The notes under the pieces were generated by a model. The model was not told the origin of the DNA, did not search any database, and saw nothing but the letters and a program-made list of their open reading frames with translations. A DNA stretch of 64,000 bases, taken from Coptis chinensis (lineage: Eukaryota; Streptophyta; Magnoliopsida; Ranunculales; Ranunculaceae). The DNA lies in assembly GCA_015680905.1 (NCBI GenBank), contig CM027382.1:22045501-22109500 (forward strand), read 5' to 3'. A program made the position numbers and the translations under genes. Below, in pieces: positions 4,100 to 58,020 of the stretch (positions are counted from its first letter, which is position 1; each line of letters starts with the position of its first letter).

Positions 4100-6706
4100 T
4101 CAACACATAGTAATGAGCCTTGGCATAGTCCTTTGGATCAAGAATGGAACTTGTATAGGCTCCCAAAGGCTGAACATTCGTGTGAAAAAGGAAATCCAAC
4201 CTGTTGATTCTCATTACCACCATCATAGTTTCGTTTCTTCACGATTGAACCGAAGTTTCAACTCCTTGAAGATACATGGAGCAAAACGTGAGACATTCGG
4301 TGTCTACATACGCTTTCAAAGAATTGAACCTTCGGGCGAGCTTTATTTGAACATATTGTTTTAGCGTGTGTAGATAATTTTTTATATATAACACACATGT
4401 AATATATATATAGTAAATAAAAACTTGAACATGCTAATTTCAAATTAAATAAATTACAAACCGTAAACCTCACCTTTCAATAGGATACATCCACCTATAC
4501 TGCACTGGTCCTCCAAGTATAGCCTCACGTGGCAAGTGGATAGCCAAATGGACCATTACATCAAAGAATGCAGGAGGAAATATTTGTTCGAGCTTACAAA
4601 GTATCACCGCAATGTCCTTTTCCATTTTCTCTAATACTTCCAATTTTAAAGTCTTGCAACATAACTCTTTAAAGAACATTCCCAACTCAACCAATGCAAT
4701 GGCTACATCATTGGGCACAAAACCACGTATTGCAATTGGAAGAAGTTGTTGCAAGAGCACATGACAGTCATGACTTTTCATTCCTGTTATCTTACCATCT
4801 TTAGCATTTGCACATCTAGAAATGTTAGATGCATAGCCATCGGGAAACTTCACCGACTTCAACCACTCGCAAAAAGATTTTTTCTCTGAAGATGACAATG
4901 TGTAGCATCTTTGGCGGCATTACAAACTTATCACCTCTTGGGATTAGATGCAACTCTTTTCTTATACCCAATGCGCCAAATCTAACCGAAGCTTTTACTG
5001 AATCTTTTGTTTTGCTATCTATATCTAACAATGTCCCCACTACATTGTCACAGATGTTCTTCTCAACATGCATAACATCCAAGTTGTGTCGAGCTTAAGA
5101 GTGTCCCAACACGGTAACTCAAAAATATGCTTTTCTTTGTCCAATTCAACTCCATCTCAAGACGCTTTCTTCTTCTTGTTAGCGGCGGCTTTCCGAATTT
5201 CTGAAGAGGTTCTACATAGTTCACTGTGATAACAATTCATCCCTAGACAACTCGTAGGTGGCAACCTGCTCTCCCTATTTCCATCAAATAAGTGTTTGCC
5301 ACGAAGTTCTCCAAGGATGCCTTGGCTGCAGAAAACGACGATTGGCCATATAACACAACTTTCGCCATTCTTTAAATACATGGAAACGTATCCTTGTTAC
5401 AATTAGGGCAAGCCGGTTTCCCTTTCGTGCTCAAACCGGATAAATTACCTAGTCTTTGGAAAATCATTTATAGTCCATAACACCGCAAAGATGCAACCGA
5501 AATGTTTCCTTTGCTAACGCATCATACGTCTCCACCCCATCATTCCATAACTCTTTTTAGTTCATCAATCAAAGGTCGTAAATAGACATCGATATCATTC
5601 CCAGGCGATGTAGGCCCGGGATCGATGAGTAGGCACATGAAGGTGAATGGTTCTTTCATACACTTCCACGGTGGTAAATTATACGGCATAACCAGTACTG
5701 GCCACATACTATATTGGCTGCTCATATTCCCAAACGGGTTAAATCCATCGCTTGTGAGACCAAGGCGAACATTGCGAGGATCATTGGCAAACCACTCATG
5801 TTCCTTGTCAAAATCACCCCAAGCTTTAGAATCTGCTAGGTGTCTAAGTACGTTCTCCTCATGCTCAAGTTTTTCTTTATGCCATCTCATATCTGCAGCA
5901 TTAACCCTCGACATGAATAGCCTCTTGAGCCTTGGTTTAAGTGGAAAGTAACGCAACACCTTCTGTGGTATTTTTTTAGTCTTGCCTTCGAAGACTTGAT
6001 ACCTCGGCTCATTACATTCTGGACAATTTTGAAGATTTTCATTTTCTTTCCAAAACAACACACAATCATACTTGCATGCATGGATTGAGATATAACCAAG
6101 TCCCAAGTTACGCATTAATGCCTTCACCCTCGTAATGGGACTTTGGGAGTGTCTCACCTTCAGCAATATTGCTTTAATCAATTGGAGAATCATAGTGAAT
6201 GATTTGTTACTCCAGCGATTGATTATCTTCAAATGAAGCGACTTCGACACAATCTAACTTTGAAGATTTACAACCCTGGATACAAAGGTTGGCGTGCTTC
6301 ACTCAAAAGTTCATCAAATGGATCTATATTACCTCCTCGATTCCCTATGTTCCACATTAGGCACCAGATTATCAATGTGTATTGGAGCCTGCAAATCTTC
6401 AAACATGTCATCCAGTCCATCAAACTGTACCCCTTCACCAACATCATCGTCATCATCGTCACTTTGTTCCTCATAGTCTTCTCCATGAAAAACCCAACGG
6501 GTGTAATTCTTGTCCATGCCGTAAAGGTCTAGATCGTCTTTTACCTCGTCGATGTGCTTATAATTCCTATTTTTGCATTGTTTGCATGGACATCTAGTCC
6601 TGCCCATTCTGTCTATATGACCACGAGCAATCTCAACAAAATCTATAATTCCTTTTTTATAGTCAGGCCTAAACCTATTCGGCGATTGCATCCAACTCTT
6701 ATCCAT
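4100..6706 (-). pseudogene. TNPD-type transposase of CACTA element 1, broken
   Basis: It starts at 6706 with MDKSWMQSPNRFRPDYKKGI and a CPCKQCKNR cysteine cluster, typical of the transposase-associated domain. The frame 6250-5540 matches the Transposase_21 core, with GLTSDGFNPFGNMSSQYSMWPV and PGNDIDVYLRPLIDEL, which contain likely catalytic aspartates. Around 5082-4825 is the conserved LDVMHVEKNICDN motif. Around 4898-4470 is a DUF4218-like region (CHVLLQQLLPIAIRGFVP, HLPREAILGGPVQYRWMYPIER). The domains occur in the canonical order but in different frames, with several stops and frameshifts, especially between 5520 and 5080. The enzyme would cut at the CACTA termini; this copy looks dead. 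Confidence 0.85.
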
Positions 6707-9540: not shown

Positions 9541-9839
9541 ATTAAATTTTTAATGCCAAAAGGCGTTGCATGCCAAAGGTAAAATACTTTTTTGCGACCA
9601 CTGCGCCGTAGTTGGTACTCAATTTTTTCATTAAAAATGAAATTTCAGTTAAACAAAAAATTTAAACAAATGCTTTTGCAACGCCAGCTAGCGTCACACT
9701 AGTTATATCCCCATCAGGTGGTACTAATAAGACGGAAACGTTTGAGCAGCGCCATTAGGCGTTGCAAATGCTATGCTTTACCAACGAAAAGTAGGCGTTG
9801 CAAAAGGTTGCGTTGTAACAGATCCCTTCTGTTGTAGTG
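9540..9839 (-). repeat. CACTA element 1 terminus and subterminal repeats
   Basis: The terminus reads CACTACAACAGAAGGG on the minus strand from 9839. Copies of GGCGTTGCA or its complement TGCAACGCC occur near 9551, 9677, 9752 and 9793, with a degenerate one near 9809. This layout (a short CACTA terminus plus about 300 bp of short motifs in both orientations) is diagnostic of En/Spm elements. Confidence 0.85.
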
Positions 9840-10620
9840 TATAGTTCTATGATTCAGAGTATCATTTCCTATTTGATCCCTTTGAATTCCATATTCGAAG
9901 TTGCGATCGGATCTATTCATTAAAAAGAATTGATTCGATATATTTCTTATGTACCCATGGACTTGAATCAGATTTTGGATCAATCTATATTGATTGACTG
10001 CCTTCATTATGTTGTTGCTAGCAAATACCACTATTTTTGGTTTTGGATCTTCCAAAGCATTCCCGCAGGAGATCGGACCAATTTTTTTCGATCCTTCGAT
10101 AAAAAGATTCATTCTTTTCATAAAAATAGGAGGTAGAATCAATAAAGATTTCTTTTTCGATTCATCCCTCGAGTTGAATACCTCATTCAAGAATTTTTTT
10201 TGATCCAATCTGTAGGAATCAATAGAAAAGGCAAATCCCTTTATGATACACCGATCCGCTCGGTTATTGATAGAGTTAATAGATCCGCCATTTCTTGAAA
10301 TCTCTCTTCTGATTCAAAATCGTGGTGCAACGTGTATCCTCCCTTGTTCCGGTCATGGAATAGATGAAATAAATCAAAAAATGAATTTTGGTTTAAGAAT
10401 GAAATCTTATTGGAACTGTCCATATCCGGTTCATCCTTCGGAACCATATCACATCCCGGATCTGAGCGGTTGGATGCAGAGCCTTCCACATCCCCCAGCT
10501 CAGAACGTTGGGACGCCAAGTGATTTGTGTCACCCAACTCAGAACGTTGTGATGACAAATGATTTGCGTCACCCAACTCAGAGCATCTAGATTGCGTCAC
10601 TCCTCTAGCCATCCTCGGAT
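9840..10620 (-). pseudogene. ycf2: Nuclear copy of chloroplast ycf2 (NUPT)
   Basis: On the minus strand, 10600-10241 encodes a ycf2 stretch ([20 protein letters not shown], then [11 protein letters not shown] and [19 protein letters not shown]), and 10208-9850 continues with [50 protein letters not shown] and NDTLNHRTI. These are consecutive parts of the same ycf2 region. A frame change lies between the blocks around 10210-10240, so it is not functional. In plastids Ycf2 is part of an import-associated AAA-type complex. The piece ends abruptly at the CACTA terminus; the right limit, near 10620, is where the match fades and is uncertain. Confidence 0.9.
10490..10590 (-). repeat. 39-bp tandem repeat inside the ycf2 copy
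   Basis: A unit encoding a 13-residue SQRSELGD-containing motif is repeated about three times (CACCCAACTCAGAACGTTG recurs near 10529 and again, slightly changed, near 10568). Such in-frame repeats are known in ycf2, so they may have been inherited from the plastid gene rather than formed in the nucleus. Confidence 0.7.
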
Positions 10621-20672: not shown

Positions 20673-22434
20673 TTAGCCTGCATATATGAGCTCCATTAAC
20701 TTTTCCCTGTGAGAAAAATCCAAGCAAGTTTCATGAGTAGGGCTAGATTCAGTCGCGAAGTTCCTGAGCCCTAGCCCTCCTTCCTTGAGAGGTTTGCAAA
20801 CCTTTTCCCATTTAAGAGCAATTCCTTTCCTAACCGTGGGATCCCCCGACCAAACAAAATTCTGTATAGCTGCTTCACAGTCTTTGATACACTTTGAGGG
20901 CCGTTTGTATATGGACATGTTATACACTGGGAGACTATTGAGAATTGATTGGGCCACAACCACCCTACCCTGAAAAAAAAAAAGCATTCTTCCGGCCCAA
21001 CCACTTGCTCTTCTCTTCACTTTATCCACCAAGAGTTGTATACTAGCTCGAGTTATTCTACCTTTAAAAAGTGGAGTGCCCAAGTATTTCTCAGGGAGAG
21101 AACCTTCAGAGATATCAAAAAGTTCTATAACTTTAGCTTTCTTGTCCCTATTCATAACACCAAGGAACAACTTGCTTTTAGACTGGTTGAAATATTAGCC
21201 GGCGGACTGCTCATAGGTGTTAAGCAAGTGTTTAAGAAGCCTAAGGCCCCGTATGCCTCCATTAGCGAATATGAAAACGTCATCCACGAACAAAATGTGG
21301 GTGGGGCTAGGGCACTTGCCCGCTGCTGTCATATGCTTTATCTTGCCAAAGTAAAATAACCCATTCAATGCTCTACTGAGGACATCTTCCGCTATATGAA
21401 AGAGGATGGGGGATAGGGGATCCCCCTGCCTGAGACCTCTACCAGTCTCAAAGAAACCACATGGACCACCATTGATAATAATAGAGATATTAGCACTTTT
21501 GGAGAAGAGTGGAAATCTAGGAGCACCATTGGTTGCAGAAGCCAAACCTTCTAAGTACTTCTAGCAGGAACTCCCAACTAATAGAATCAAAAGCTTAAGT
21601 AATGTCAAGCTTGATGTCGACGTTGCCACCCCTAGTCTTCTTGTCCAATTCATTCACCATTTATGAGGCAAGAGTAATGCCCACTGTGCCTATTTTGCCT
21701 TGAATAAAAGCCAGCTGTTCTCCGCTAATGATCTTACTCACAATGGATTTAATCCGCAAGGAAAGAATCTTAGTAATAATCTTGAATAAGAAATTACTAA
21801 GGCAGATAGGTCGAAAATGATTAACTTCAACAGCATTTGTAACTTTCGGTACTAGGACGAGAAAGCTAGAGTCCATGCCCTTGGGGAGGACATTATCTCT
21901 AAAGAAAGAAATGATTGCATGACTGATGTCCTGTCCAATGATACTCCAGAAGGTGTGATAGAAAATGCCTTGGAAGCCGTCGGGCCCCGGAGCACTGTTT
22001 GCATCCATAGCGAACACCGTATCTCTGACCTCATTTTTGGTTGGCATGGCTGAAAGTGTAGCATTATCTTCCACTATAACCAAGTTCGGAATCAAATTCA
22101 TCATAACTTCATCCATCTCTACTGGTTGGTGCTTGTACTTTTCCTGATATTCCTCTACAATAAACCCCTTTATATGGTTTTGTTGTGTGAGAAAGGTACC
22201 TTCTCTGTTCTTTATTTCAGTGATTTGTGCTCTTGCCTGTCGCATTTTGATGGTGGCGTGAAAGTACGCCGAGTTTCGTTCACCGTGTAAAGCATCTGAG
22301 ACTCTGGATTTCTCCTTTGCCATGGTAGTAAGAACATTTGTAACTTCCTCAATTTCCGATGCCTTATCAAATTCCATTTGTTGTAAAGTGGAATCTGTAG
22401 GGTCATGCTCCTGATCTAGCAGAATCTGATCCAT
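20673..22434 (-). pseudogene. LINE reverse transcriptase domain
   Basis: The minus strand reads, in order, REGTFLTQQNHIKGFIVEEY, then SAPGPDGFQGIFYHTFW, NHFRPICLSNFLFKIITKIL, IISGEQLAFIQG, then ETGRGLRQGDPLSPILF, HILFVDDVFIFANG (the catalytic FxDD retained), then LPEKYLGTPLFKGRI and GLGLRNFA. This is the non-LTR reverse transcriptase with its thumb-like tail. At least two frame changes (around 21545-21660 and 21195) break the frame. LINE-encoded enzymes copy their own RNA into nicked chromosomal DNA. Confidence 0.85.
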
Positions 22435-22488
22435 TTCCTCTTCAAGGCGCTTAAGATGCTGGGATTGATTACCAAAGACTTCAAAACT

Positions 22489-28915: not shown

Positions 28916-29055
28916 ATTTTTTTCTCTTTACATACTATTTCAAGTGAAAGTGATTTCATCTCAAGTATGGTAACTTTGGAGACAAATTACTCATTCATAT
29001 CTTAATAGATTTGTGCAAATCTATTATTTTTTTAACAAAAACCATTTCAGTTTTT

Positions 29056-30216
29056 ATACAATGCAACAATGCTGGAGCGGATTTTGTCCAATGCTACGGT
29101 GACATTCTAGATCCTCTTTATGTACCCCATATGGTTCGTGATTTTTTTACTCTCAATGGCACGATCAATTATGATGGTCTATATCAACCGTTGCTTTCAA
29201 TTCAAGTTACCCAACCGCTGATGGCATCATTTCGGCATTTTACGAACTCATGGTCTGAAATATCTAGAAGCAATTGTAGTTATATGATCCCACGTTTGCT
29301 TTTTCTCAATCGTTGGTTTTTCAACGGTACCAATTCACTGATTCGAATTCCAGCCTCATGTTTCGAAAAATTGACCACATCGTGTGCTTTGCCCCTACTC
29401 GAGAAACGGATTTTTGATTTCACACCCTAAAATATTGCTAAACTTGAAACAAAATCAAGATATCAAGACATCAATATCTTCTTTTTTAATTGTACTGGCG
29501 CACGTGTTGCAAGCTGTCACACGTGAACACAATCTTAATTCTAATCAAGAAATAAGTTAGAGTGTTTCTACAGCAACACACACTTTGAACCGAATTTGTG
29601 AACACAATGATGTGGCAAGCAGAGAGACCTTGATTTGCAGTACTTCTTTGAGAAATACACACACACCCCTTGCCTGATGAGTGCCACGTCATTGTGTTCA
29701 CAAGTTTTGGTTCATTTTGTGTGTTGCTAAAGAATTTTTGAATAAGTTATCGGTTATTAATGGGTTATAGGGGAAATTTGACTCTCTGTTACGTAAAGAC
29801 TACTTTGGTAATTCTGTCTATTGGGATATTGTGACAACAAAGGTTGGTGAGTTGATGAACCGAGACATCAAATTCGCAGTTGAGTTGTTGAGCCAAGTGG
29901 TTGACTTGCATACGGGCGCAAAAAATTGCAATGCTAGGGAAATTTGGGTGAAAAAACCGGCAATACTTTGCATTCAAGAGTTGGAAAGTCAAAATCCAAT
30001 TTTGACTACAGGATGTTCCGCAAGGTTTAATATGTACGGAAATGATTTTGGGTGGGGGGCCTCATTGGGATGCGAAGTGGGTGTGGTAATAAGTTTGATG
30101 GAAAGATAACTATTTCTCCGGGTGCGACTAAGTATGGATGTTGAAGCCTGTCTTTCTCCTAAAGTATTAAAGGAAATGGGAGAGGATGATGAGTTCATGT
30201 GGTTTGTCTTGGCTTA
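29056..30216 (+). pseudogene. BAHD acyltransferase pseudogene 1
   Basis: The plus strand reads NNAGADFVQCYGDILDPLYV, NYDGLYQPLLSIQVT, then FTNSWSEISRSN and LFLNRWFFNGTN, then (about 29500-29780) VLQAVTREHNL and YRLLMGYRG, then KVGELMNRDIKFAVELLSQV and NMYGNDFGWG with a final GEDDEFM. Aligned by eye to the copy at 48352, it lacks about the first 100 residues, and the HxxxD catalytic segment is damaged (only an out-of-frame ADG remains). The DFGWG motif survives. BAHD enzymes transfer acyl groups from acyl-CoA to alcohols or amines. Multiple frameshifts and a MITE (29560-29740) interrupt it. Confidence 0.85.
29560..29740. mobile_element. 181-bp MITE in the BAHD pseudogene, 9-bp target duplication
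   Basis: The inverted repeats read CAGCAACACACACTTTGAAC from about 29571 and, on the other strand, TAGCAACACACAAAATGAAC, continuing into TGTGAACACAATGA. AATAAGTTA flanks both sides (29551-29559 and 29741-29749). The flanking BAHD codons continue directly across the element. A Mutator-like origin is most likely from the 9-bp duplication. Confidence 0.85.
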
Positions 30217-40222: not shown

Positions 40223-41275
40223 TAAGTTTGGTCGCTTTATGAAAAAACCACAAAGTCCGTCGCACCATTGACTGGTGTCTTCGATAGTATCGTGTTTAGA
40301 TTCAGAATCACCGGTTTCAAAGTGGTGTCTTCGATAGTATCGTGTTTAGATTCAGAATCACCGGTTTCAAAGGGATGGCAGGGAATGCTTTCTACAACAT
40401 AAGTTAGTTCCCACGAAATCTGAGGCCGAGATCGAGTGGTCAAAGTGGAAGCAAAGTTTTGGCTATGAGGTGTATCGTCAGGAAGTATATCATCAGAAAG
40501 GATATCATCCGATATGGTATCCTCATAATGGAGGCTATCATTAGAGATGGTATCTTCACTGGTCATTGAAACGACTATACACAAAGAAGGGATGACAAAG
40601 GTATTTTTAATATCGTCAATTCAAGATTTACAAAGCATTATTAGCAGCATGATATTAGAGTATCGGCAATGTCGATATAAAAGTTGAATTATTGAAAATA
40701 CCGATGTATATATATATATATATTGGAATAACATAGTGTTGGATTATCGGAAATATCGTGATATATGCCGATAGTTAAGCCATAACAAACAAAAAAATAC
40801 AAATAATGTTATGAATAAAAAGATTCGAACTTTTATATGTTTTGAAGTTTAAAGTAGTAATGTATGTCACTGCATAAGCATTAGCACACAAGCACATGCA
40901 GATTTAAGGGATTCAATTGAAAACTAAAGTTAAAACAAATTGTTGTATCTATTATTACTAAAGTAAGTATTTCAATGCATGTTTTAGAAAGATTAACGAA
41001 GTGCAGGACGAAAGAACGTACCTTATGGGTTGCAAGAGTGATGGGTTTTCAAGAGAATGAGATTAACCTTATGGAAAGTTGAAGAAGAAGAAAACTAGAG
41101 TTTTGTGTTTGGAAGCGTACGAAGAAGCTAAAGAGGGAGAAACGGTTAAGGTTTAAATTTATAATATTAAAACATTGGACCGGGTGGCTATTTGGGCCCG
41201 ATAGTTTTCATATCCATTATCTGATATAACCGCTTCTCGAAAAGTTGAAATTTCAAATGAAAATTTCAAGATTTC

Positions 41276-41720
41276 GAGAGGGGGCGATGTAGTGGGCAAA
41301 TATCATACTCATAGATATGTTTCTTTCAGTATTTTAAAACTTGAGATATTAGTATAAGGGTCAATATCTCGATAAATGTCAGGGATATTTGAAATGTTTT
41401 GCGCATGCATAAGGCGGGAAAGAGAATAGAAAGAGGAAGGACACATGGCGAAAGCAGGTTGGGTCAAAGGCATTTGGGAAGACTATAAAAAGGTTGGATG
41501 AAGAAGAAAATGATTCATTCAATTCAGATTACAAAAAACTGTATAAACATGAGAGAGAAAGAGTAAACTATAGAGAAATTGTAACAAACTTTATCATCAA
41601 TCAATAAACACATCGCTTATCTTCATCTTTCATTCATATCTTCATCATGAATTGTGTGAACTAAGAACATTAATTGGAAGTAAGTGTTCTTGGCAATCTC
41701 AATATATATATATATATATA
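41276..41720 (+). mobile_element. 3' LTR with polypurine tract (fossil), interrupted by the Pack-MULE
   Basis: A purine tract (GAGAGGGGGCGA) is followed at 41288 by TGTAGTGGGCAAATATC, a typical LTR start. A TATA box (GACTATAAAAAGG) is at about 41481 and a polyadenylation-type CAATAAACA at about 41603. The right side runs into a TA repeat and the Pack-MULE terminus. The tract-LTR order shows that the retroelement is in plus orientation, so its gene on the left is antisense. Confidence 0.6.
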
Positions 41721-41917
41721 GGGATACAGACATTGAAGTAACTTTGTAGCCACATTCAGGGCCGTAATGCTGAATCCCAAACCATTCATCTGGTGCAATC
41801 CAACGGATGTGACCAAAATTTGACCGAAGCAATCGCGAGTTCTAAATCACGAAATATGGGAGGGTATTTTAGGAAACAAAATTTGACGGAAGCCAAAAAT
41901 AGAATTTTCTCTCCAAA
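41721..41917 (+). repeat. Left terminal inverted repeat of the Pack-MULE
   Basis: It begins GGGATACAG and shares long runs with the complement of the right arm, for example CATTCATCTGGTGCAATCCA and GACCGAAGCAATCGCGAGTT. It ends about 75 bases before the HGH1-type ATG, so transcripts of the captured gene could start in or near this arm. Confidence 0.9.
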
Positions 41918-41991
41918 TAGAATCGCGATTGCTCTCTCCTCTCTCTTTGTCTCTGCTGAGAAATCGAAAACCTCAAAACCTTTATTTGCCA

Positions 41992-42436
41992 ATGGCGACT
42001 GAGCTAGAAGAACTCCTTCAATTCCTTTCTTTCCCTTCTCTACAAGTAACTTCCATATTACTCTCTTCTCTTGTCACTTTTCAACTAACCATGAAAAAGA
42101 ACACATCTTTTATTCTCTTTCTTCGTTGCTTTTTACTTTGTTAATTGAATTTCATTTTTATGTTTTTCCGTAAAGAAGGAGTCGTTGATATAGTGAGAGA
42201 TTTGACAGGTTTTGAAGATGGATTGCAAGCTCTTACGTACTATTCTCAGATTGTGTTTCCTTCACTGTCTTGTCTCTTGGCTGAAAATAAGGTGCCCATT
42301 TCATTCTGTAATTTCATAATAATATATGTATGGGCTACTAAAATTTTTTTCTATGTTTCAGGAGATTTCAGAACCTGCAGCTCAAGCTCTTGTCAATCTA
42401 TCTGAAAATTCGGAACTATCAATAAAGATGATTGAA
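41992..42436 (+). pseudogene. HGH1: HGH1-homologue 5' exons, captured
   Basis: Exon 1 (41992-42045) encodes MATELEELLQFLSFPSLQ before a GTAACT donor. Exon 2 (42176-42291) encodes EGVVDIVRDLTGFEDGLQAL and LSCLLAENK between AG and GT borders. Exon 3 (from 42362) encodes EISEPAAQALVNLSENSELS and IKMIE. This is the start of the armadillo-like HGH1 protein (DUF383/DUF384), a chaperone cofactor for translation factor eEF2 in yeast. Reading frames and splice sites are intact through exon 3, where sequence changes to homoserine kinase. The initiating ATG context suggests it could still be translated as a chimera. Confidence 0.85.
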
Positions 42437-42765
42437 TATGAGTATTGTATGGCTCTTCATAAGAGTATTGTCTGGCAAGCCATGAGCTCTGCTTATATGT
42501 TTAATTATTACCAGCAATGTATGGCTCCATTTGATAAGGACTTGTTTTTTGTTCTTGTTAATCCTGAATTTGAAGCCCCAACGAAGAAAATGAGGGCGGT
42601 ATTACCGACTGAAATCAGTATGAAGGAACATATTTGGAACAGTAGTTAAGCAGGAGCGTTGGTTGCATCAGTGCTTCAAGGAGATTTAAGAGTATTGGGT
42701 AAGGCAATGTCATTGGACAAGATTGTTGAACCCAAAAGAAAAAGGCTTGCAACGCGTTGTTGTTA
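42437..42765 (+). pseudogene. HSK: Homoserine kinase fragment fused in frame to HGH1
   Basis: The HGH1 frame continues through about 95 unassigned bases into FDKDLFFVLVNPEFEAPTKK and MRAVLPTEISMKEHIWNSS, then a stop at 42649; beyond it the same frame reads AGALVASVLQGDLRVLGKAM and SLDKIVEPKRKR. This is the GHMP-type homoserine kinase of threonine synthesis (plastid), region VLVxPEFEAPTKKMRAxLP. The N-terminal ATP-binding half and the C-terminal GAGPT part are absent. The join inside one open frame makes a two-gene chimera of about 190 residues if spliced as described. Confidence 0.85.
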
Positions 42766-43970
42766 AAGGCAAGTGTCAATAACTTGTCCCCTGTTGTTAC
42801 TCTGCTTTGCATTTGAACAGAGTTCTTAACTTCTTTTCAATAATCTAGAACCTTATAGACCGCTTCAGATTGGTATGCTTTACTTTGACATATTTTTGTT
42901 GTCTCTCATTCAAAATTGAAATGGCACTATGTTTCCTATTAGATAGTCATCTGCGTAGAAATCACATTGTCTAAGATGTAGAACTTTCATTGTTCATTAA
43001 CTAAATGTTGCCATTTTTGGAAGTTAGGGTCATCGGTTTGGTGGTTTAGTGGTAGTTCTTGGCTTCAATCGACGGAATGCCGTTGTAGGTGGCAAAATAG
43101 GTTAAGTTGTTCGGGTTGACGATAACCTTGTTCATCGTTCATTAACCGAATGTTACCAGTTTTTGGAAGTTAGGGTCATCAATTTGGTGTACTTTTTGCT
43201 TCTTCGTCGTTGTAGGTGGCAAAATAGGTTAAGCTATTAGGGTTGATGATAACCTTGTCAATGAATTGTAAGGATGATTGGAGTATTTGCAACATGTAAA
43301 ACTGGACTTTATAATCGTGTGACGTGATTTGTTTAGTTAGTAGACTAATGCCTCTCGAATGAGTGCTTTCGATTAATTTGTGAATGTGGCTTAATTAATT
43401 GCGGCATGAATTGTGGTGTAGGACACGATTATAATTTATGAGCAGGTATTTTCTTCATAAATAATAGGAACTGCCTATTCTCATGTTTTTAATGTCAAAA
43501 AAATAAAAAGTCGATTAGAGAAGAATAACAGTTATGTTGTGATAATTAAATTATTTGAAAGTTTTTGTCGGACCGTTAGTTGAATAGAAAGATCATAATA
43601 GCATCTCTGGTGGACAAAACTACAAAGTGAATGGTACAACTAAATTTGGGTATATCGCTACACGTTTCACAATCTTTTCTCGCAAAGAGATATTTGGAAG
43701 GTGGAGCTTTATTTATTTATTTATTTATTTTATTTGGTTAAGTTGGGTTTTACGGACAAACATTCTCCATCAATTCAAGTGCTAATAGACAAAATTTGAA
43801 ACGAAGAAAGTGATTGGAAAGACAGAGACCATTAACACCATTAAGCATAGTTTCATAACTATATTCTCAAGGATCTGTTTCATTCTATGAATTAAGTTGC
43901 TCGTGTGTTTCTTGCTTCCCTATGTGACGAAAGTACCTATTTTGAGTTTATTCCAATTCAAAGGTATCTT
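42766..43970. repeat. Intergenic part of the Pack-MULE with a tandem duplication
   Basis: No gene is recognised. Two copies of a block holding GGAAGTTAGGGTCATC, GTTGTAGGTGGCAAAATAGG and GATAACCTTGT lie at about 43019-43132 and 43160-43260. A (TTTA)n microsatellite is at about 43710-43735. Confidence 0.6.
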
Positions 43971-44560
43971 CTCCCCGCAGGTTAATCAGATTGTTAATCC
44001 ATTCAAGCACGGTTCTGAGAATCCATTCAAGCAAAGACTAGACTCAAAAAAGCTGCAGGATGGGGTGTGATGGTTAGCCATCGAAGTGGTGAGACAGAGG
44101 ATAATTTTATTGCAGATCTCTCTGTTGGCTGGCAAGTTTAACGGGACAGGTTTGAATATGGTTCTCCTTAGCCCGGTAGAAATGTTTTGTAATTTTCTTG
44201 AGAATGTTGAGTTGATTTTTTTTTTTCTTATTTTTCTCTTACAGATAAAAAGGTGCTCCCTGCCGGAGTGAGCGGGTGGCTAAGTATAATCAGGTATTTC
44301 TCTCTTTCCTTTTTGTAGTTGCTGGCTTATCTATGTAAAATATGAAAGTGGCATAGCTTTTCCTGGTTCTACATATGCTAGTTATATCTTTTCGTACTAC
44401 CAAAGCACAAATACGTTGAGAATGCAACAAAGTACATTTGGTCATGTATACTCTACTTGTAATCTTATTTAATGATCTTCAACTTTGATGCAGCTTTGGC
44501 GCATTGAAGAGGAGCTTGGGAACGTCGTTATGTTGGTGAAGCTTTCAGGATCTCCTTAGA
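43971..44560 (+). other. Unidentified exon-like blocks in the Pack-MULE
   Basis: After a CCCCGCAG acceptor-like site, [20 protein letters not shown] is open until a stop near 44070. Around 44487-44560, after GATGCAG, LWRIEEELGNVVMLVKLSGS is open. These look like exons of a further captured gene or genes, but I cannot name them. Confidence 0.3.
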
Positions 44561-45735
44561 AAATACTTGGATCACACCTAAATTTTTTTATCTTAAAAAT
44601 AATGCATTGAAGCAAATTCACCACAAGGTTGAGAATGGAAACCAATGATTACCTTCGATCTAAAGCAAGTTTTTCAGACATTAGAAGTTTTGGGTGCAGC
44701 CAACCGGCTTATATAGGATTTTGATGAGGGACCTCTAGGGGTGAGGAAATCATGTTCTTTTCGGTGTTTGAATAATCTTTTTCGGGAGGGATCGAGAGAT
44801 ATTTTTCTTGATTTAAGAATCTTGTTTCCATTTGTATTTGTTTTGGTTAAAATGTAATGGTATAATGTTGAATGTGATATGTGTAACCTGTATCACGGAC
44901 CTCAATTCCCTTGTTTTTTAAACAAAGTTGTTTGTAGTTTCTTGTTTGTGAATTTCTATTGCTGGTCAAGAACAAAATTTAAAAAGTAGTTCTGTAAACA
45001 TCGGGTAAATGTTTCTTGTTTGATTTGATATGCACCTCGTTTGCCAAATTTTGATTTTATCTATCCCGAAATGCTTATAGACATCCTCTAAATTCTTCCC
45101 GCTTTCAACTTGGACAAGAACGTGACCATTTTTTTTAGGTAAAGACAGGACGCGTTATTTGTAAGAAATGAATGAATACGTCTTGGCATGATCACTCAAT
45201 CTATGTCACTGTGACCTAAAAAACGTACTCACCTTTGGGTAATTGGATACAAGTCAAGTTTGTCAAAATCCTCAATAGCTATTATGATGGGGAGACACGC
45301 TGACAATTTTAGGCTGGTCAAGTGAACGACGTTTGTAGACATCACGACCCTATCATGTTAGAATGGTCGAAATCGTGAATATTTTTGAGCCATGTATATA
45401 TAATTCAATATACTAATTTTATACCTCATGGTGATTTATAGTTTGTGTTTTTGGTATTCTTTGCCCATTTTATTATACTAGCCAAGACGAAAAAAAAAAT
45501 TACGGAGGAGAACTTAAAAGTTTTAGAGTTGGCTTGCTTTTTTAGGATGCTTTCGGAACTTCAATTCATTAGGTAATTAGCTCCAAGCATGTCCGTGTCA
45601 ATGTCCGTGTGTAATCTACTAAGTTCATATTCTTTTGAAATCCCTTTTAAGTGAACTATACCAACATAGCGACTGCCAATATCACCATGAAACGAATGCA
45701 CTTACTTATCCATCACATGCAATCAATAATGATAA
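44561..45735. other. No supported gene
   Basis: AT-rich interior of the Pack-MULE without assignable frames on either strand. Confidence 0.4.
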
Positions 45736-45959
45736 TTCTAACAGACCAAAAAACAAAACATGAAGAACGGACAAACTGACTTAGAATTAATCTCTAAATA
45801 ATTATACCAAACCAAACACGCACAGGACATATTATGTGATATGATGTTCCCTAGAGGACCTATAAAACATCTACTGTCATTGTCACTATCACTGTAACCT
45901 GTAGGAATACTAACAAGTAAAAAAGCACAAGTTAACATAACAAAACACAAGTCTCTATT

Positions 45960-46318
45960 GCATGCAAGTTCACAAAAAACGCAACGAATGGAGTTTTCGA
46001 CTGCTTCTAAGAAAACATCATCAACTTCGATTGTTTGCAGGAAATCAGCATCTTTAAAGAAGATTTTAATAGCATTCTCCTTCATATATGCTGCCGCATC
46101 AGGGCCACCATGACCATCAAACACCCCAAAGAAAGCACTTGGAGTTGGGCAGCTACAGATTGACCCCAAGTACGAGGATAAGTCATCAATCTGAATGTGT
46201 TCATCTTCCATATATCTCCGCAGACCAATATAAGCATAGCTACCAGAACGGATGGTACAAATTGTAGATCGGAACATTCAATGGTGCCATCAGGGATGGA
46301 GTCAGTAGGCTTCGCTTC
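45960..46318 (-). pseudogene. Protein phosphatase 2C fragment, captured
   Basis: After an acceptor (GTTCAG at 46324-46319) the minus strand reads EAKPTDSIPDGTIECSDLQF and VPS, then with a small frame change IRSGSYAYIGLRRYMEDEHI, FFGVFDGHGGPDAAAYMKEN and VDDVFLEAVENS. RxMED and FDGHGG are the first metal-binding motifs of PP2C phosphatases; the sequence is closest in memory to the clade of Arabidopsis PP2C22/PP2C49. Everything after the first quarter of the catalytic domain is missing. It lies on the opposite strand to HGH1-HSK, downstream of the ATG2 exon, so the two could be parts of one chimeric transcript. Confidence 0.85.
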
Positions 46319-46333
46319 CTGAACAATAAACAA

Positions 46334-47860
46334 CTAAGATCAGTCATCTTTTCCTAGATACCTAAACAAAGATCAATTAACAACTCGCCATAAAGCATCC
46401 TATCCACTTCATCAATCTATAAGCATAAACAAGGAAAACACTAGTGTCCAACACAGTTCACAGAGAGTTTCACTGCTTGGGTAAATTATAGTTTTTCAGG
46501 GCATCATGTTTACATTCATTATTCAGCCTTAACAAACAGTTCTTGACAAATTGTATCTTCATAATGATGCACAACATCACCCTGTCCTAAAAAATCATGT
46601 TTGTCATGTTAAACAGTATTGGAGGCTTGAACAACAATCTTCTACAAATTGCAGAAACTTTTTACTAAAGTATCTTCACAATCTGGGCTTTCTCTATTTT
46701 ATATATTTTCAATCAAAATTTTGCAGCAATTACAACCATCATAACCTGCATTCTACAATGTACTAAAATTACTGAAAATTTCATAACTAGAAACTACGTT
46801 ACTTTGATACCCAAGAAAAGATTTATAGTAATGCATGACTCAAACTAACAGTGTAATGCCTTGAACAAACGAAAATATTAAAATCCCACAGATAACATAA
46901 CATAGAAAGAACCTGAATTTGAATTAAAATCCTAAAACTAACAATATCTACACGAAAACCCAAATGAAAGAATTTGAATTTTTAAGTTGAGTCTTCATAG
47001 CTTATAAAATCACTGAGCTCATAAACAGGGATGATGAAGCTGAAAAAAAATGAAAACTGAACTATTCTGATAAGACAAAACAACTAACATCACTCTCTTT
47101 AAGCATTATTTTCGAATCACAAAAGAAAAAGAGAAAATGGAAGTCTCATACAGTGCCTTTTCACTCTTAAGTATAAGTTGATCATTCTCCCCTAGTTGTG
47201 GATTTCACTTCTTGTTGGAAACTAGAAGTACACTACTACTTTTAATTCGCTCGTGGAATCTTGCAACTCAGACAATTCTTATTTTTCCTATGGCATGCCT
47301 TATCCAACTACTTTTAGACTGTCTTTGTCCGCACTTCAATCTCTTGTACAAGGTGATATCCAAAGAAAATGTATCTATCCTTTCATTTTCCGAATTCAAT
47401 CTCCTACTTGTCAAGTGTGTGTGGTGGAGAGTGGGTTTTATCTTTAGGCTCGCTGAATTTTCGTGTCCTTTGTGAAAACAAAAGATAACATGGGTCGCAA
47501 AACCAAAGTTTCACACACTCTACACTAATGTCACGCCTCCTAAGAAAGAAGCTACATAGTTAAACATGCGGTTAGGCAGATTCTTATTGAAAAATAGTTT
47601 ATCAATCAATTATGATTATTCATGAACCTACTCTCCTCTCTTTCTCAACGATGTCTCTCTCCTCTCATAAAATCTCACAGGCAGTTCAAAACACCTAGTT
47701 GTAAAACAAGTCTTAACTCACAAACTCGTTCTTTCATCAATAACGCCCACAAACAAAAACTCTCCTTAAAAAATTCAAAATTTCCAACAATTCTCACACA
47801 CACATACATAAAATCAAAAGCCCAGACCCAAATTCACAATTAAAAAAATATATATCATAC
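46334..47860. other. No supported exon
   Basis: This AT-rich stretch lies between the PP2C and ATG2 fragments; it would be intronic if the two are co-transcribed on the minus strand. An open plus-strand frame at 47253-47447 is not recognisable. Confidence 0.4.
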
Positions 47861-48004
47861 CTTTTGGTTGATATAATCAACATTAAGAGCTAGGTCGGTA
47901 AGTTGAAGAGTACCATAACCAAGTTGAACATCAAGTTGTTCTAAATCAAGATCACCAAGTATATACTGCCCTAATTTCTTCTTCAAATGAATCTCCTTTA
48001 TGGA
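47861..48004 (-). pseudogene. ATG2: ATG2 first-exon fragment, captured
   Basis: The minus strand reads IHLKKKLGQYILGDLDLEQL, then DVQLGYGTLQLTDLALNVDY and INQK, followed by a GTATGA donor at 47860. This is the N-terminal chorein-like region of the autophagy lipid-transfer protein ATG2 (KKLGQFILGDIDLDQLDVQL in plants). The usual ATG2 start and the preceding residues are absent, and no in-frame ATG is evident, so it is a fragment. It lies within 70 bases of the right inverted repeat, mirroring HGH1 at the left arm. Confidence 0.85.
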
Positions 48005-48067
48005 TTGCACACAAAAAATTTTGTTTTTGCTTTCTCCTTTATAGATTTTGGAGAGAGATCGGTGAAA

Positions 48068-48253
48068 TTGGAGAGCAAATTCTATTTTTTGCTTCGGTCA
48101 AATTTTGTTTCCGAAAATACCCTCTCATATTTCGTCATTTAGAACTCGCGATTGCTTCGGTCAAGTTTTTGTGACATCCGTTGGATTGCACCAGATGAAT
48201 GGCTGGGATTCACTGTGCCCAGAATGTGGCTACAGTGCCTGTGGCTGTATCCC
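48068..48253 (-). repeat. Right terminal inverted repeat of the Pack-MULE
   Basis: Inverted copy of the left arm, ending ...CTGTATCCC at 48253. Point differences and small indels from the left arm suggest some age since insertion. Confidence 0.9.
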
Positions 48254-48351
48254 TCCCCGTATATATATATATGAGTCTGTGGACTCCGGGTGTGCAAATT
48301 GCTAATCATACTTGGTAGCTTGAGAGTTCAAACCAGGAAAGTAAGAGAAAA

Positions 48352-49711
48352 ATGAGTCCAGCTGATGTTCAATACATCTCAACCTACAGAGTTCGACCGC
48401 TGAACTCCAACAAAGAAAGTGGAAAGATTCCTTTAACACCATGGGATCTCACTTTACTTCCAGTTCAATACATTCAAAAGGGAATTCTTTTTCTCAAACC
48501 ACAATCCAGACAAACCAAAGAAGAACAAGCATTTCTTGTCGATCAGCTCAAGAAGTCCTTAGCTCCAACACTCGACTTTTTCTTCCCTTTAGCTGGTCGC
48601 TTAGCTATGGAAAAACACAAAGATGATTCCATTTCATTTTTTATCAAATGCAACGACCAAGGCGCCAGTTTAGTTCATGCACCAGCTGAAGTTTTGGTCT
48701 CGGACATACTTGATCCGGTCTACGTACCTCCGGTAGTATACAGGTTTTTTCCTATTAACTATGCGACAAATTATGACGGACTACGTCTACCTTTACTTTC
48801 CATACAAGTAACTTTCTTGATTGATGGTATATTCATTGGGTGTACCATGAACCATTCAGTATGTGATGGCTCGTCTTTTTGGCATTTCATGAATTCATGG
48901 TCTGCAGTAACTAGAGGTGCTAAGAAAATCTCACGTCTTCCAGTGCTCGAGCGTTGGTTCCTTAACGCAGCCGAATGCCCCATTCGTTTTTGTCGAATGA
49001 AGATCAATTCATCGAACACTACACTCAGCCACCAGTAGCTGAAAGGTTTTTTCCGTTTTACACGTCAAGACCTTGCCAAACTCAAAGCCAAGGCTAATAA
49101 TGAAATGGAAACAACCACGATCTCCTCTCTACAAACATTGTTAGCACATGTATGGAGAGCTGTAACGCGTGCAAAAAATCTCAATTACAATGAAGAAGTC
49201 AAGTATCGGGTATTGATTGGAAATCGCGCTAATTAACCCACCATTACCGGATGAGTACTTTGGTAACTCAATTCAACTTGTGACTGCAACAGGTAAAGCT
49301 GGTGAGTTAGTTGAAAGAGGGTTGGGTTGGGCAGCATGGTTGTTGAATCAGACCATAACGTCACATAATGATTCGGAGGTCCGGAGTTCATGGGAAGCTT
49401 GGATGAAGAAGCCTCTATTGATGACACGTAGTAAAGCAGCGACTGGTTTGATCACTGGGAGTTCACCAAGGTTCAATGTGTATGAAAATGATTTTGGGTG
49501 GGGTAAACCTATTGGGGTGCGAAGTGGGTGTGGTAATAAATCTGAGGGGAATATATCTGTTTATCCTGGTCCAGTTGAAGGGAGTGTCGAAATTGAAGCT
49601 TGTCTTTTGACCAATACATTGAAAGCTATGGGTGAGGATTTGGAATTTAGTGTGTATGCCAAACAGTTATTATTTTTATTTTCCTTTTTTTTTATCAAAT
49701 CAATTAGTTAA
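48352..49711 (+). pseudogene. BAHD acyltransferase pseudogene 2, nearly full length
   Basis: It starts at 48352 (MSPADVQYISTYRVRPLNSN) and contains LTPWDLTLLPVQYIQKGILF, FFFPLAGRLAMEKH, DILDPVYVPPVVY, the catalytic HxxxDG as NHSVCDGSSFWHF, LERWFLNAAECPIRF, then in other frames EDQFIEHYTQPPVAERFF, LQTLLAHVWRAVTRAKNL, INPPLPDEYFGNSIQLVTAT and NVYENDFGWG, with VEIEACLLTNTLKAMGED near the end. This is the clade of At3g50280-like uncharacterised acetyltransferases; the acyl acceptor is unknown. Three frame changes (about 48997, 49047 and 49225) break it. The C-terminus runs into a repeat shared with 59.5 kb. Confidence 0.9.
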
Positions 49712-51894: not shown

Positions 51895-53375
51895 ATTTTT
51901 GCCTCCTTCTCCCTCCTCTGGATCCAACCAATTTGGATCATAAATTGGTATCGAATCTGCTGTTTCTTCAATGCCAGTCCAATTAAAAATATGCTCAACT
52001 AAGTCATTTTGAAGATTAGTATGTGTAACTTCATTTCTGATCTTATTTCTTGCTTCAATCATCTAATAGACAAAATGAAAACCATCATCTTCCTGAAAGA
52101 GCACAGGTATTGTTTCTTTCCTCTGACCTTTCCAATTCCAAACTCCACTTTCACGTTCACTCTCAACAATCATATTATGCATTATAATGCATGCCTTCAT
52201 TATGTCTCCAAGAACAACAACACTATGACAACGCGTAAAAGCCTTAACAATATGTCATCATGCCTGCAAAACTCCAAACATCCTTTCAACATCCTTTCTT
52301 GCAGCTTCTTGACGTTGAGTAAAGATCTTTTCATGCTTATTTCTTGGATAACAAATGGCTTGAACAAATGTGCCCCATTTTGGATAAATACCATCAGCAA
52401 GATAATATCCCATATTGTAGTCATTACCATTCACATTAAATGCAACAGCAAGAGCCTCACCTTGCTCTAATGATTCAAAAACATGAGAACGATGAAGCAC
52501 GTTAATGTCATTATGCGAACCTAGTAAGCCGAAGAAGCAATGCCAGATCCAACAGTGTTTGTCTGCAACGGCTTCAAGTACCAAAGTTGGTTCCTTCTTG
52601 TACCCTACATGTGTTCCAGCCCATCCAATTGGACAATTCTTCCACACCCAGTGCATATAGTTGATTGATCCAAGCATTCCTGGAAAACCCCTTGCCGCAT
52701 TTTCAGCTAATATCCTAGCAGTGTCTGTCTCAGTTGGTCGTCTCAAGTACTCTTCCTCAAACGCCATGATTATTGCCTTGCACCAACACTTCATAGATAC
52801 ATTTGCTATGGAATCTCCAATTTGTAAATACTCATCCGTTGAATCAGAAGAACAATCAGTTGCTAATTGTGCAACTGCAGCTAGTCCCTTCTATAACCCA
52901 AAAATTGCTTGCCGACCCAATCCATCCACATTGTCTTTAAAGTAATCGTCGAATGCTGCAACAATTTTCAACATATACATAAAAAGCTCTCTTGTCATCA
53001 TGTACCTTCGTCTAAACTTATGAGGAGACCACCTACAAGGTGTTGTGAAGTAATCCTTCATTATCTTTTGTTTACTGAAATCACCACCATCTCTAAACGT
53101 GTAATCTCTGCCCTTCACAGATCCACCGCGTTTGTCTGTATCCACATCTTCAATTTCAATGGCTGCTTGAGTCATTAATGCCCCAGTAGTGGATAATAAC
53201 TGCAACCTCCTCCTCCTCCTTCACCTCATCATATCATTATGCTCATCTCTTACTCTTTCCATGTAGTCATTTTCAGCGGAAGTATCAGAAGACGACCCGG
53301 TAAAACCAGAAGACGAACTATTACTACTAGATCCTCCCCCATAATCTTTGGTTAAATGCAATTCTTTCTTCTCTA
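51895..53375 (-). pseudogene. PIF/Harbinger DDE transposase, catalytic Asp changed
   Basis: The minus strand contains SKQKIMKDYFTTPCRWSPHK and FRRRYMMTRELFMYMLKIVA (N-terminal helical part), YLRRPTETDTARILAENAAR, GFPGMLGSINYMHWVWKNCP, LLGSHNDINVLHRSHVFESL, YYLADGIYPKWGTFVQAI and RKDVERMFGVLQA, then HIVKAF and a C-terminal tail ending DPNWLDPEEGE. This is DDE_Tnp_4. In active relatives the first catalytic residue is the D of GSIDCMHW; here it is N. The second Asp (SHNDINVL) and the Glu region (DVERMFGVLQA) are kept. Stops occur near 52890 and 52258. The serine-rich region near 53300 may be the N-terminus; start uncertain. Confidence 0.85.
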
Positions 53376-57047: not shown

Positions 57048-58020
57048 ATGTCAACATTAATAATTAGATAAATAAATGAAATGAAACAATAAATTAATAA
57101 ATAAGACTTACCGGTATAATCCAAACAAAGCCGCACAAATTGCCTTTAGCGGCTTTCGTCTCAACTGCGAGGTCTAGCCAGTGGTAAAGGTATGATAATA
57201 TGGATTGACCCCAGTCATAATCCCACATCCTCTTTACGTCTGAGACAGCGACCATCCACCCGATACGTAAATAACTATCAACGTATCCGAATAATACCGC
57301 ACCAACAAAGTAGAAGAGAAAGGCAAGTACATATTCGTAGATCGACTCCTCACCAATATGATAGTCTTTCGGCTTCTCCTTGAGCCTATTCAAGTATCTT
57401 GAAGTAAACCAACTCATACTTATAGCTCCTCCCTTAAATTGCTCAGCCGATAATCTCAAAAACCCGTCTTCCTCATCATCTTCTACCAAATCAAAACCTT
57501 TAAAGAAACTCATCGCCGTAGTAAAAACCTCTAAATTTTCATCAAAAGGAACGACATATCCATAACCAATTGGGATACCCGTGAGCATCGTGAAATCAAG
57601 AGGGGTAATCTCAAGCTCACCCCATGGGAAATGGAATGTGTGGGTAGTTTGCCACCACCGCTCAACTATCCCAAACAACAACGCTTAATCATTTTGTCCC
57701 AAATTAGAATTCAAAAAGTTCCCAAATGGTGTGGCGGCTATAATGTTGGTAACCGTGACAAAATTAGGATCCGTTTTTTATTTCATACAACGCTACCACG
57801 ACATAACATTTGAAATTGCACAACGCACTTTCCATAGGTGTACTTCCTACATTCAACCAACACGCAATACGATATAATTACAACTAATTTTTTTTTAAAA
57901 CAATGCAACAAATTCAAACTAATTACACAACAACAAACTTGATATAAACTAACATAAATAATAATAATTAACATAAAAAAAAAATCTAAAACTTACTTGA
58001 GACTCCGCCACTCAATTTGC
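55748..58020 (-). pseudogene. Plant mobile domain (PMD, MAIN/MAIL1-type) gene in the Harbinger element
   Basis: On the minus strand, about 57800-57690 reads TNIIAATPFGNFLNSNLGQN, a stop, then from 57681 FGIVERWWQTTHTFHFPWGE, ITPLDFTMLTGIPIGYGYVV, YEYVLAFLFYFVGAVLFGYV and DYDWGQSILSYLYHWLDLAV, the hallmark blocks of the PMD. After a short AT-rich intron, 56940-56650 has THDLIPRIQAWGLHCR, RIEWQPLAESFIFQTPYADI and KYRRLSYMCHREKGFF. The frame from 56651 has VGSVTAWYLGDRCWRQVSGK and HYRANPNDWPD. A glutamine/arginine-rich coiled-coil end is at 55939-55770. PMD proteins (MAIN, MAIL1) help silence transposons and keep the genome stable, and PMDs also occur in some transposons. A few stops suggest decay. 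Both sides carry the element's palindromes. Confidence 0.8.
57008..57045. repeat. (TA)n microsatellite
   Basis: A run of TA dinucleotides within the probable intron of the PMD gene. Confidence 0.95.

Follow-up and report, generated by a model that had tools for sequence, protein, structure and literature searches.

The stretch of DNA analyzed in the present study, hereafter the window, comprises 64,000 nucleotides of the Coptis chinensis genome (assembly GCA_015680905.1, contig CM027382.1, positions 22,045,501 to 22,109,500), and the coordinates given are those of the window. Between 41721 and 48259, two long inverted arms enclose a putative gene-capturing DNA transposon that carries fragments of HGH1, homoserine kinase (HSK), and enolase on the plus strand and fragments of ATG2 and PP2C on the minus strand. 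The outer end of each arm abuts a (TA)n run.

The left arm (41721..41916, +) pairs with the right arm (48068..48259, −), the minus strand of which begins CGGGGAGGGATACAG. When aligned together with the flanking TA runs, 41702-41916 and 48068-48272 were inverted copies of each other, with 182 of 215 columns identical (approximately 85%) and 10 gap columns (E 1e-64). This alignment confirmed the inverted repeats of about 200 bp that the first-pass annotation of this DNA had placed at both ends. The inner 140 bp of the arms (41777-41916 and 48068-48207) were 92% complementary. The terminal inverted repeats (TIRs) of Pack-MULEs, which are Mutator-like elements (MULEs) with captured gene fragments, are usually at least 100 bp in length. 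A comparison of the element with the whole window recovered the arm match at E 2e-61, and no further arm copies were found across the 64 kb (E 1e-5). The (TA)n runs (left, 41702..41720; right, 48260..48272) adjoin the outer arm ends only. They are two of the six runs of six or more TA units in the window, and a search of 41000-49000 revealed no additional run of at least five units. Inverted repeats of at least 20 bases were not found within a single arm, except for one of 25 bases centered on the TA run. Rfam gave no matches at the gathering threshold in 41500-48500. Exact arm patterns had 0 matches in both the viral and the bacterial/archaeal collections, a result that is uninformative for a plant element.

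The plus-strand cargo begins with HGH1 exon 1 (41992..42045), which has an ATG 75 bases inside the left arm, matches residues 1-18 of a C. chinensis protein annotated as an HGH1 homolog (P0121; IFM89_034282, 150 aa, open frame), and is followed by GT. Exon 2 (42170..42291) was matched by Coptis HGH1 proteins; its start is shifted relative to these proteins and no AG precedes it. Only part of exon 3 is present (42362..42436), and the match to a second C. chinensis protein, P0137 (IFM89_001262), stops at 42436. Exons 2-3 and P0137 were identical at 59 of 63 residues, a count that excludes the damaged start of exon 2. We named this piece HGH1 because of its matches to P0121 and P0137; it was not recognized in Pfam, and its only matches in PDB were to designed repeat proteins and, weakly, to SUS1. 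A filler of approximately 90 bases (42437..42526) without a Pfam match then leads to the HSK fragment (42527..42739). The latter was matched by the NCBIfam models NF002288 (1.2e-15) and TIGR00191 (3e-13), both below their whole-protein cut-offs, as expected of a fragment, and by homoserine kinases in PDB from E 1.1e-7. The best identity among the six proteins compared was 47/54, with an in-frame TAA scored as a mismatch. HGH1 was previously described as running in frame into HSK. This description holds from exon 3 onward; at exon 2 the reading is shifted and no AG is present, and the TAA interrupts HSK.

The HSK fragment is directly abutted by the 3′ part of an enolase gene (approximately 42739-44559, +), with the junction placed at about 42736-42741, uncertain by a few bases. 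The earlier count of four host-gene sources was thus one short: the HGH1, HSK, PP2C, and ATG2 pieces were all found, and enolase is a fifth. The enolase part matched PF00113 (Enolase_C) at 6.5e-13 and TIGR01060 at 9.6e-9, the latter below its cut-off, and was also matched by tblastn with Macleaya and Ranunculus enolases. In PDB, it matched 67 distinct sequences at E up to 0.1, and all 60 of those listed were enolases. The first exon end extends to 42768. A 1.2-kb intron with GC-AG borders (42769-43980) comes next, followed by exons at 43981-44135, 44245-44293, and 44494-44559; these boundaries were placed by eye from splice signals, and the frames of the exons are shifted. Downstream of HSK, the exon end is read out of frame and gives the tail KRLATRCC of the chimera. 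At the position of the GC-donor intron, the Macleaya enolase P0266 reads KAS and the Ranunculus enolase P0267 has a gap, and these readings suggest that the intron may be old and misread in some annotations. The same intron also contains an imperfect direct duplication (42986-43258) with a start-to-start spacing of 127-146 bases. A 180-residue minus-strand reading across it had no Pfam match.

On the minus strand, homology to ATG2 begins approximately 80 bases from the right arm. The position of this homology and that of the HGH1 ATG agree with the initial observation that both gene sets start near the arms. The ATG2 exon-1 fragment (about 47862..47988) is followed by GT at 47861 and has no in-frame start codon downstream of the stop that precedes it. 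It matched PF13329 (ATG2_CAD) at 8e-5 (21 bits, where the cut-off is 50) and a PDB ATG2 chain at E 0.11. The PP2C fragment (45984..46318) is preceded by AG and matched PF00481 above the cut-off (1.8e-5), with its reading split over two frames by a change near 46250. Compared with the C. chinensis protein P0001 (IFM89_005559), the part beyond the frame change was identical at 87 of 91 residues and the preceding piece at 20 of 24. As read from the sequence, the end of the ATG2 exon and the start of the PP2C exon both fall at codon boundaries, so that splicing between them would keep the frame; the change near 46250 would break the spliced product. Several gene fragments are often carried by Helitrons, as stated in PMC6431247, and a Helitron that captured the pieces before arms were added around it was considered. 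However, the fragments point in two opposite directions, each set starting next to an arm. Moreover, a hairpin followed by CTRRT was not found on either strand of 41700-48280, a weak test given that 0.14 were expected in shuffles. We regard a Helitron origin as highly improbable.

P0121 has the order HGH1-filler-HSK-enolase, with the same junctions as the plus strand of the window. The intron that it implies maps exactly onto 42447-42575, with its donor in the filler, and the last part of the protein agrees with the window at 61 of 62 residues, the exception being a Q in place of the TAA. Furthermore, P0121 and the window both read SELSIK where the parent P0137 has SEISRK (two residues), while the two other changes among the 63 residues compared are private to the window. 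These shared junctions, the shared intron, and the shared SELSIK residues indicate that P0121 and the window derive from a common element in which the pieces had already been joined. P0121 may represent a separate insertion, or it may be a different allele or assembly version of the window locus.

Host parents were matched, as proteins, for HGH1 (P0137) and PP2C (P0001), and these close matches point to Coptis as the probable host. No HSK named Coptis was among the best 120 of 319 matches listed, and no enolase named Coptis among the best 120 of 7996; the search covered proteins below the length of ATG2. For both P0137 and P0001, the listed contig is 97,686,796 bases in length, and for P0121 it is 114,376,183 bases. 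The HGH1 and PP2C parents are probably on one chromosome and, to judge only from their tag numbers, would lie far apart. The first-pass annotation had also raised the possibility that the genes are simply neighbors elsewhere, in the same order and as normal genes. This is disfavored by the pieces themselves, which are truncated and joined mid-gene.

Another possibility raised at that stage was that the arms are two independent miniature inverted-repeat transposable elements (MITEs) that flank a field of gene debris by chance. An arm identity of only 85%, differing outermost bases, and the lack of a readable duplication would suit such an origin. However, two MITEs would not account for the restriction of TA runs to the outer flanks or for gene 5′ ends lying 75-80 bases inside each arm, and neither arm has its own inverted repeat of the length examined, apart from the one at the TA run. 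P0121 does not show the arms, but HGH1, HSK, and enolase occur in it as one unit. A chance pairing of MITEs is very unlikely.

We conclude that the locus is, with good confidence, a non-autonomous DNA transposon of the Pack-MULE type, approximately 6.5 kb in length, inserted in a (TA)n microsatellite and carrying at least five host-gene stretches copied from DNA. A non-autonomous MULE is the best reading because long arms, host-gene fragments with introns, and insertion in a TA run occur together, and the retained introns point to capture from DNA rather than RNA. Long TIRs and internal host-gene fragments with parents elsewhere (five fragments, with Coptis parents named for HGH1 and PP2C) are features of Pack-MULEs, while the location of both ends in TA repeats is a feature of microsatellite-targeting MULEs of the MuTAnT/Micron type. 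The Pack-MULE identity proposed from the start is therefore retained as the best fit to long inverted arms beside host-gene fragments, with membership of the MULE superfamily inferred from this structure.

Three observations weigh against this conclusion. The outermost arm bases differ, with approximately 6 bases (CGGGGA) present in the right arm and absent from the left. No target-site duplication, which in Pack-MULEs measures 8-11 bp, is readable: both flanks are (TA)n, which would hide it, and exact matches of 9, 10, and 11 bases are trivial inside TA runs. Parent proteins were named in Coptis for two of the five fragments, HGH1 and PP2C, and the other three were not located. Regarding the second point, many microsatellite-targeted MULE insertions lack a target-site duplication according to the relevant passages of PMC5907723; therefore, an absent duplication would not count against a TA-targeting MULE.

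The cargo may instead be carried by another TIR superfamily, such as a Tc1/Mariner-like element with a TA target. In TA runs, a 2-base duplication is indistinguishable from one of 9-11 bases. Pack-CACTA and Pack-Mariner elements exist, and in rice, as reported in PMC8903248, multi-locus elements form a significant share (19%) only among Pack-Mariners. However, long TIRs set MULEs apart from other DNA transposons (PMC3310237), and the ends of the present element do not read CACTA. With MuTAnT (PMC4486113), the element has in common its position in a TA run and a GGGG at the end of an arm, a weak likeness: the MuTAnT search mask is GGGGTTTGCTAGAACA, and the right arm here reads GGGGAGGGATACAG after one C, whereas the rest of the arm sequence is unlike the mask. 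We consider another superfamily to be unlikely.

If the element is a Pack-MULE, its interior would have been built up from copies of at least five stretches of host-gene DNA, and the HGH1 5′ end and ATG2 exon 1 would have come to lie next to the arms, both facing inward. Mobility would depend on a MULE transposase supplied in trans. Stop-free stretches of at least 38 aa were collected from the unassigned interior (n=37), and the 10 longest, scanned against Pfam, had no transposase match. Transcription driven by the arms could yield an HGH1-HSK-enolase transcript in which enolase is not in frame, and an ATG2-PP2C transcript. The window copy is a decayed pseudogene array: HGH1 exon 2 lacks an upstream splice acceptor, HSK contains a stop, and PP2C and enolase are frameshifted. 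Because neither chimera is intact here, chimeric transcripts from the two arms are only potential.

The element resembles the Pack-MULEs of rice and other plants in being non-autonomous, with long inverted arms and internal host-gene fragments. It differs from them in having five parents and a length of approximately 6.5 kb; the Pack-MULEs of the 2004 work were mostly 1-2 kb and none exceeded 7 kb, as cited in PMC6431247. The predicted arrangement of two convergent units is that of maize MuDR, which has promoters in its TIRs and is transcribed inward from both of them (PMC3310237). The cargo of MuDR consists of transposase genes, whereas that of the present element is host-gene debris and its arm promoters are putative. 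TIR promoters have also been described for Pack-MULE interiors (PMC3310237). Insertion in (TA)n is shared with MuTAnT, Micron (rSaTar2), and gSaTar MULEs, and insertion in TA runs is described for MuTAnT in PMC4486113 and for satellite-targeted MULEs of guayule and rice in PMC5907723. In contrast to the present element, the non-autonomous families of satellite-targeted MULEs are short, and the portions of these two articles that deal with them describe no host-gene cargo; rSaTar1, 3, and 5 are termed non-Pack-MULEs (PMC5907723).

Capture from four unrelated sources was initially called unusual, which overstated the case. Multi-locus Pack elements are in print (PMC8903248, PMC4858842), the number of loci in Pack-TYPE elements rises with element width (PMC8903248), and multi-gene chimeras in transposons have been discussed for maize (PMC2773423). 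The layout is already known, and five parents place the element at the rich end of a series rather than under a new principle. A count of five-parent elements was not found in the literature passages on Pack elements. A search of the open-licence literature returned nothing that pairs Pack-MULE with Coptis. FoSTeST is a template-switching process. Both this process and gap filling have been proposed as models of capture (PMC8277862).

The present results describe a five-parent gene-capturing element in Coptis, an early-diverging eudicot (PMC8172641). If its arms belong to a TA-targeting MULE, gene capture would be linked to that lineage. Moreover, P0121 is a transposon chimera entered in public databases as a homolog of a host gene (HGH1), and gene counts are thereby misled. 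A bolder proposal is that repeated capture of host genes is a habit of a TA-targeting MULE lineage in Coptis, and that a sister copy of the five-parent element, represented by P0121, keeps an HGH1-HSK fusion that is open and may be expressed. The fusion would then be an emerging gene, and the window copy its decayed sibling. We offer it as speculation with little likelihood.

Several weak matches were attributed to chance: T2SSF (E 0.11), NAD kinase (E 0.15), a sorting motif (E 0.15), and a LysM model (E 0.023, below the cut-off). The element lies just upstream of a BAHD-type acyltransferase (48352-49711, +), which begins approximately 90 bases past its right end; two parts of this gene matched PF02458 (7.2e-43 and 5e-23), with a frame change between 49038 and 49217. 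A degraded BAHD acyltransferase piece at 28954-29430 (+) scored just below the cut-off of the same model (5.4e-5; 22.5 bits against 22.7), and a further BAHD-like reading occurs at 29771-30109. Elsewhere, the window contains a tnp2 (CACTA-type) transposase remnant at 5540-6253 (−), a weak reverse transcriptase match below the cut-off at 21661-22488 (−), and remnants of a Plant_tran transposase (PF04827) at 52258-52890 (−) and of a plant mobile domain protein (PF10536) at 57094-57684 (−). Plastid ycf2 DNA is present at 9771-10313 (−; PF05695, 1.4e-64).

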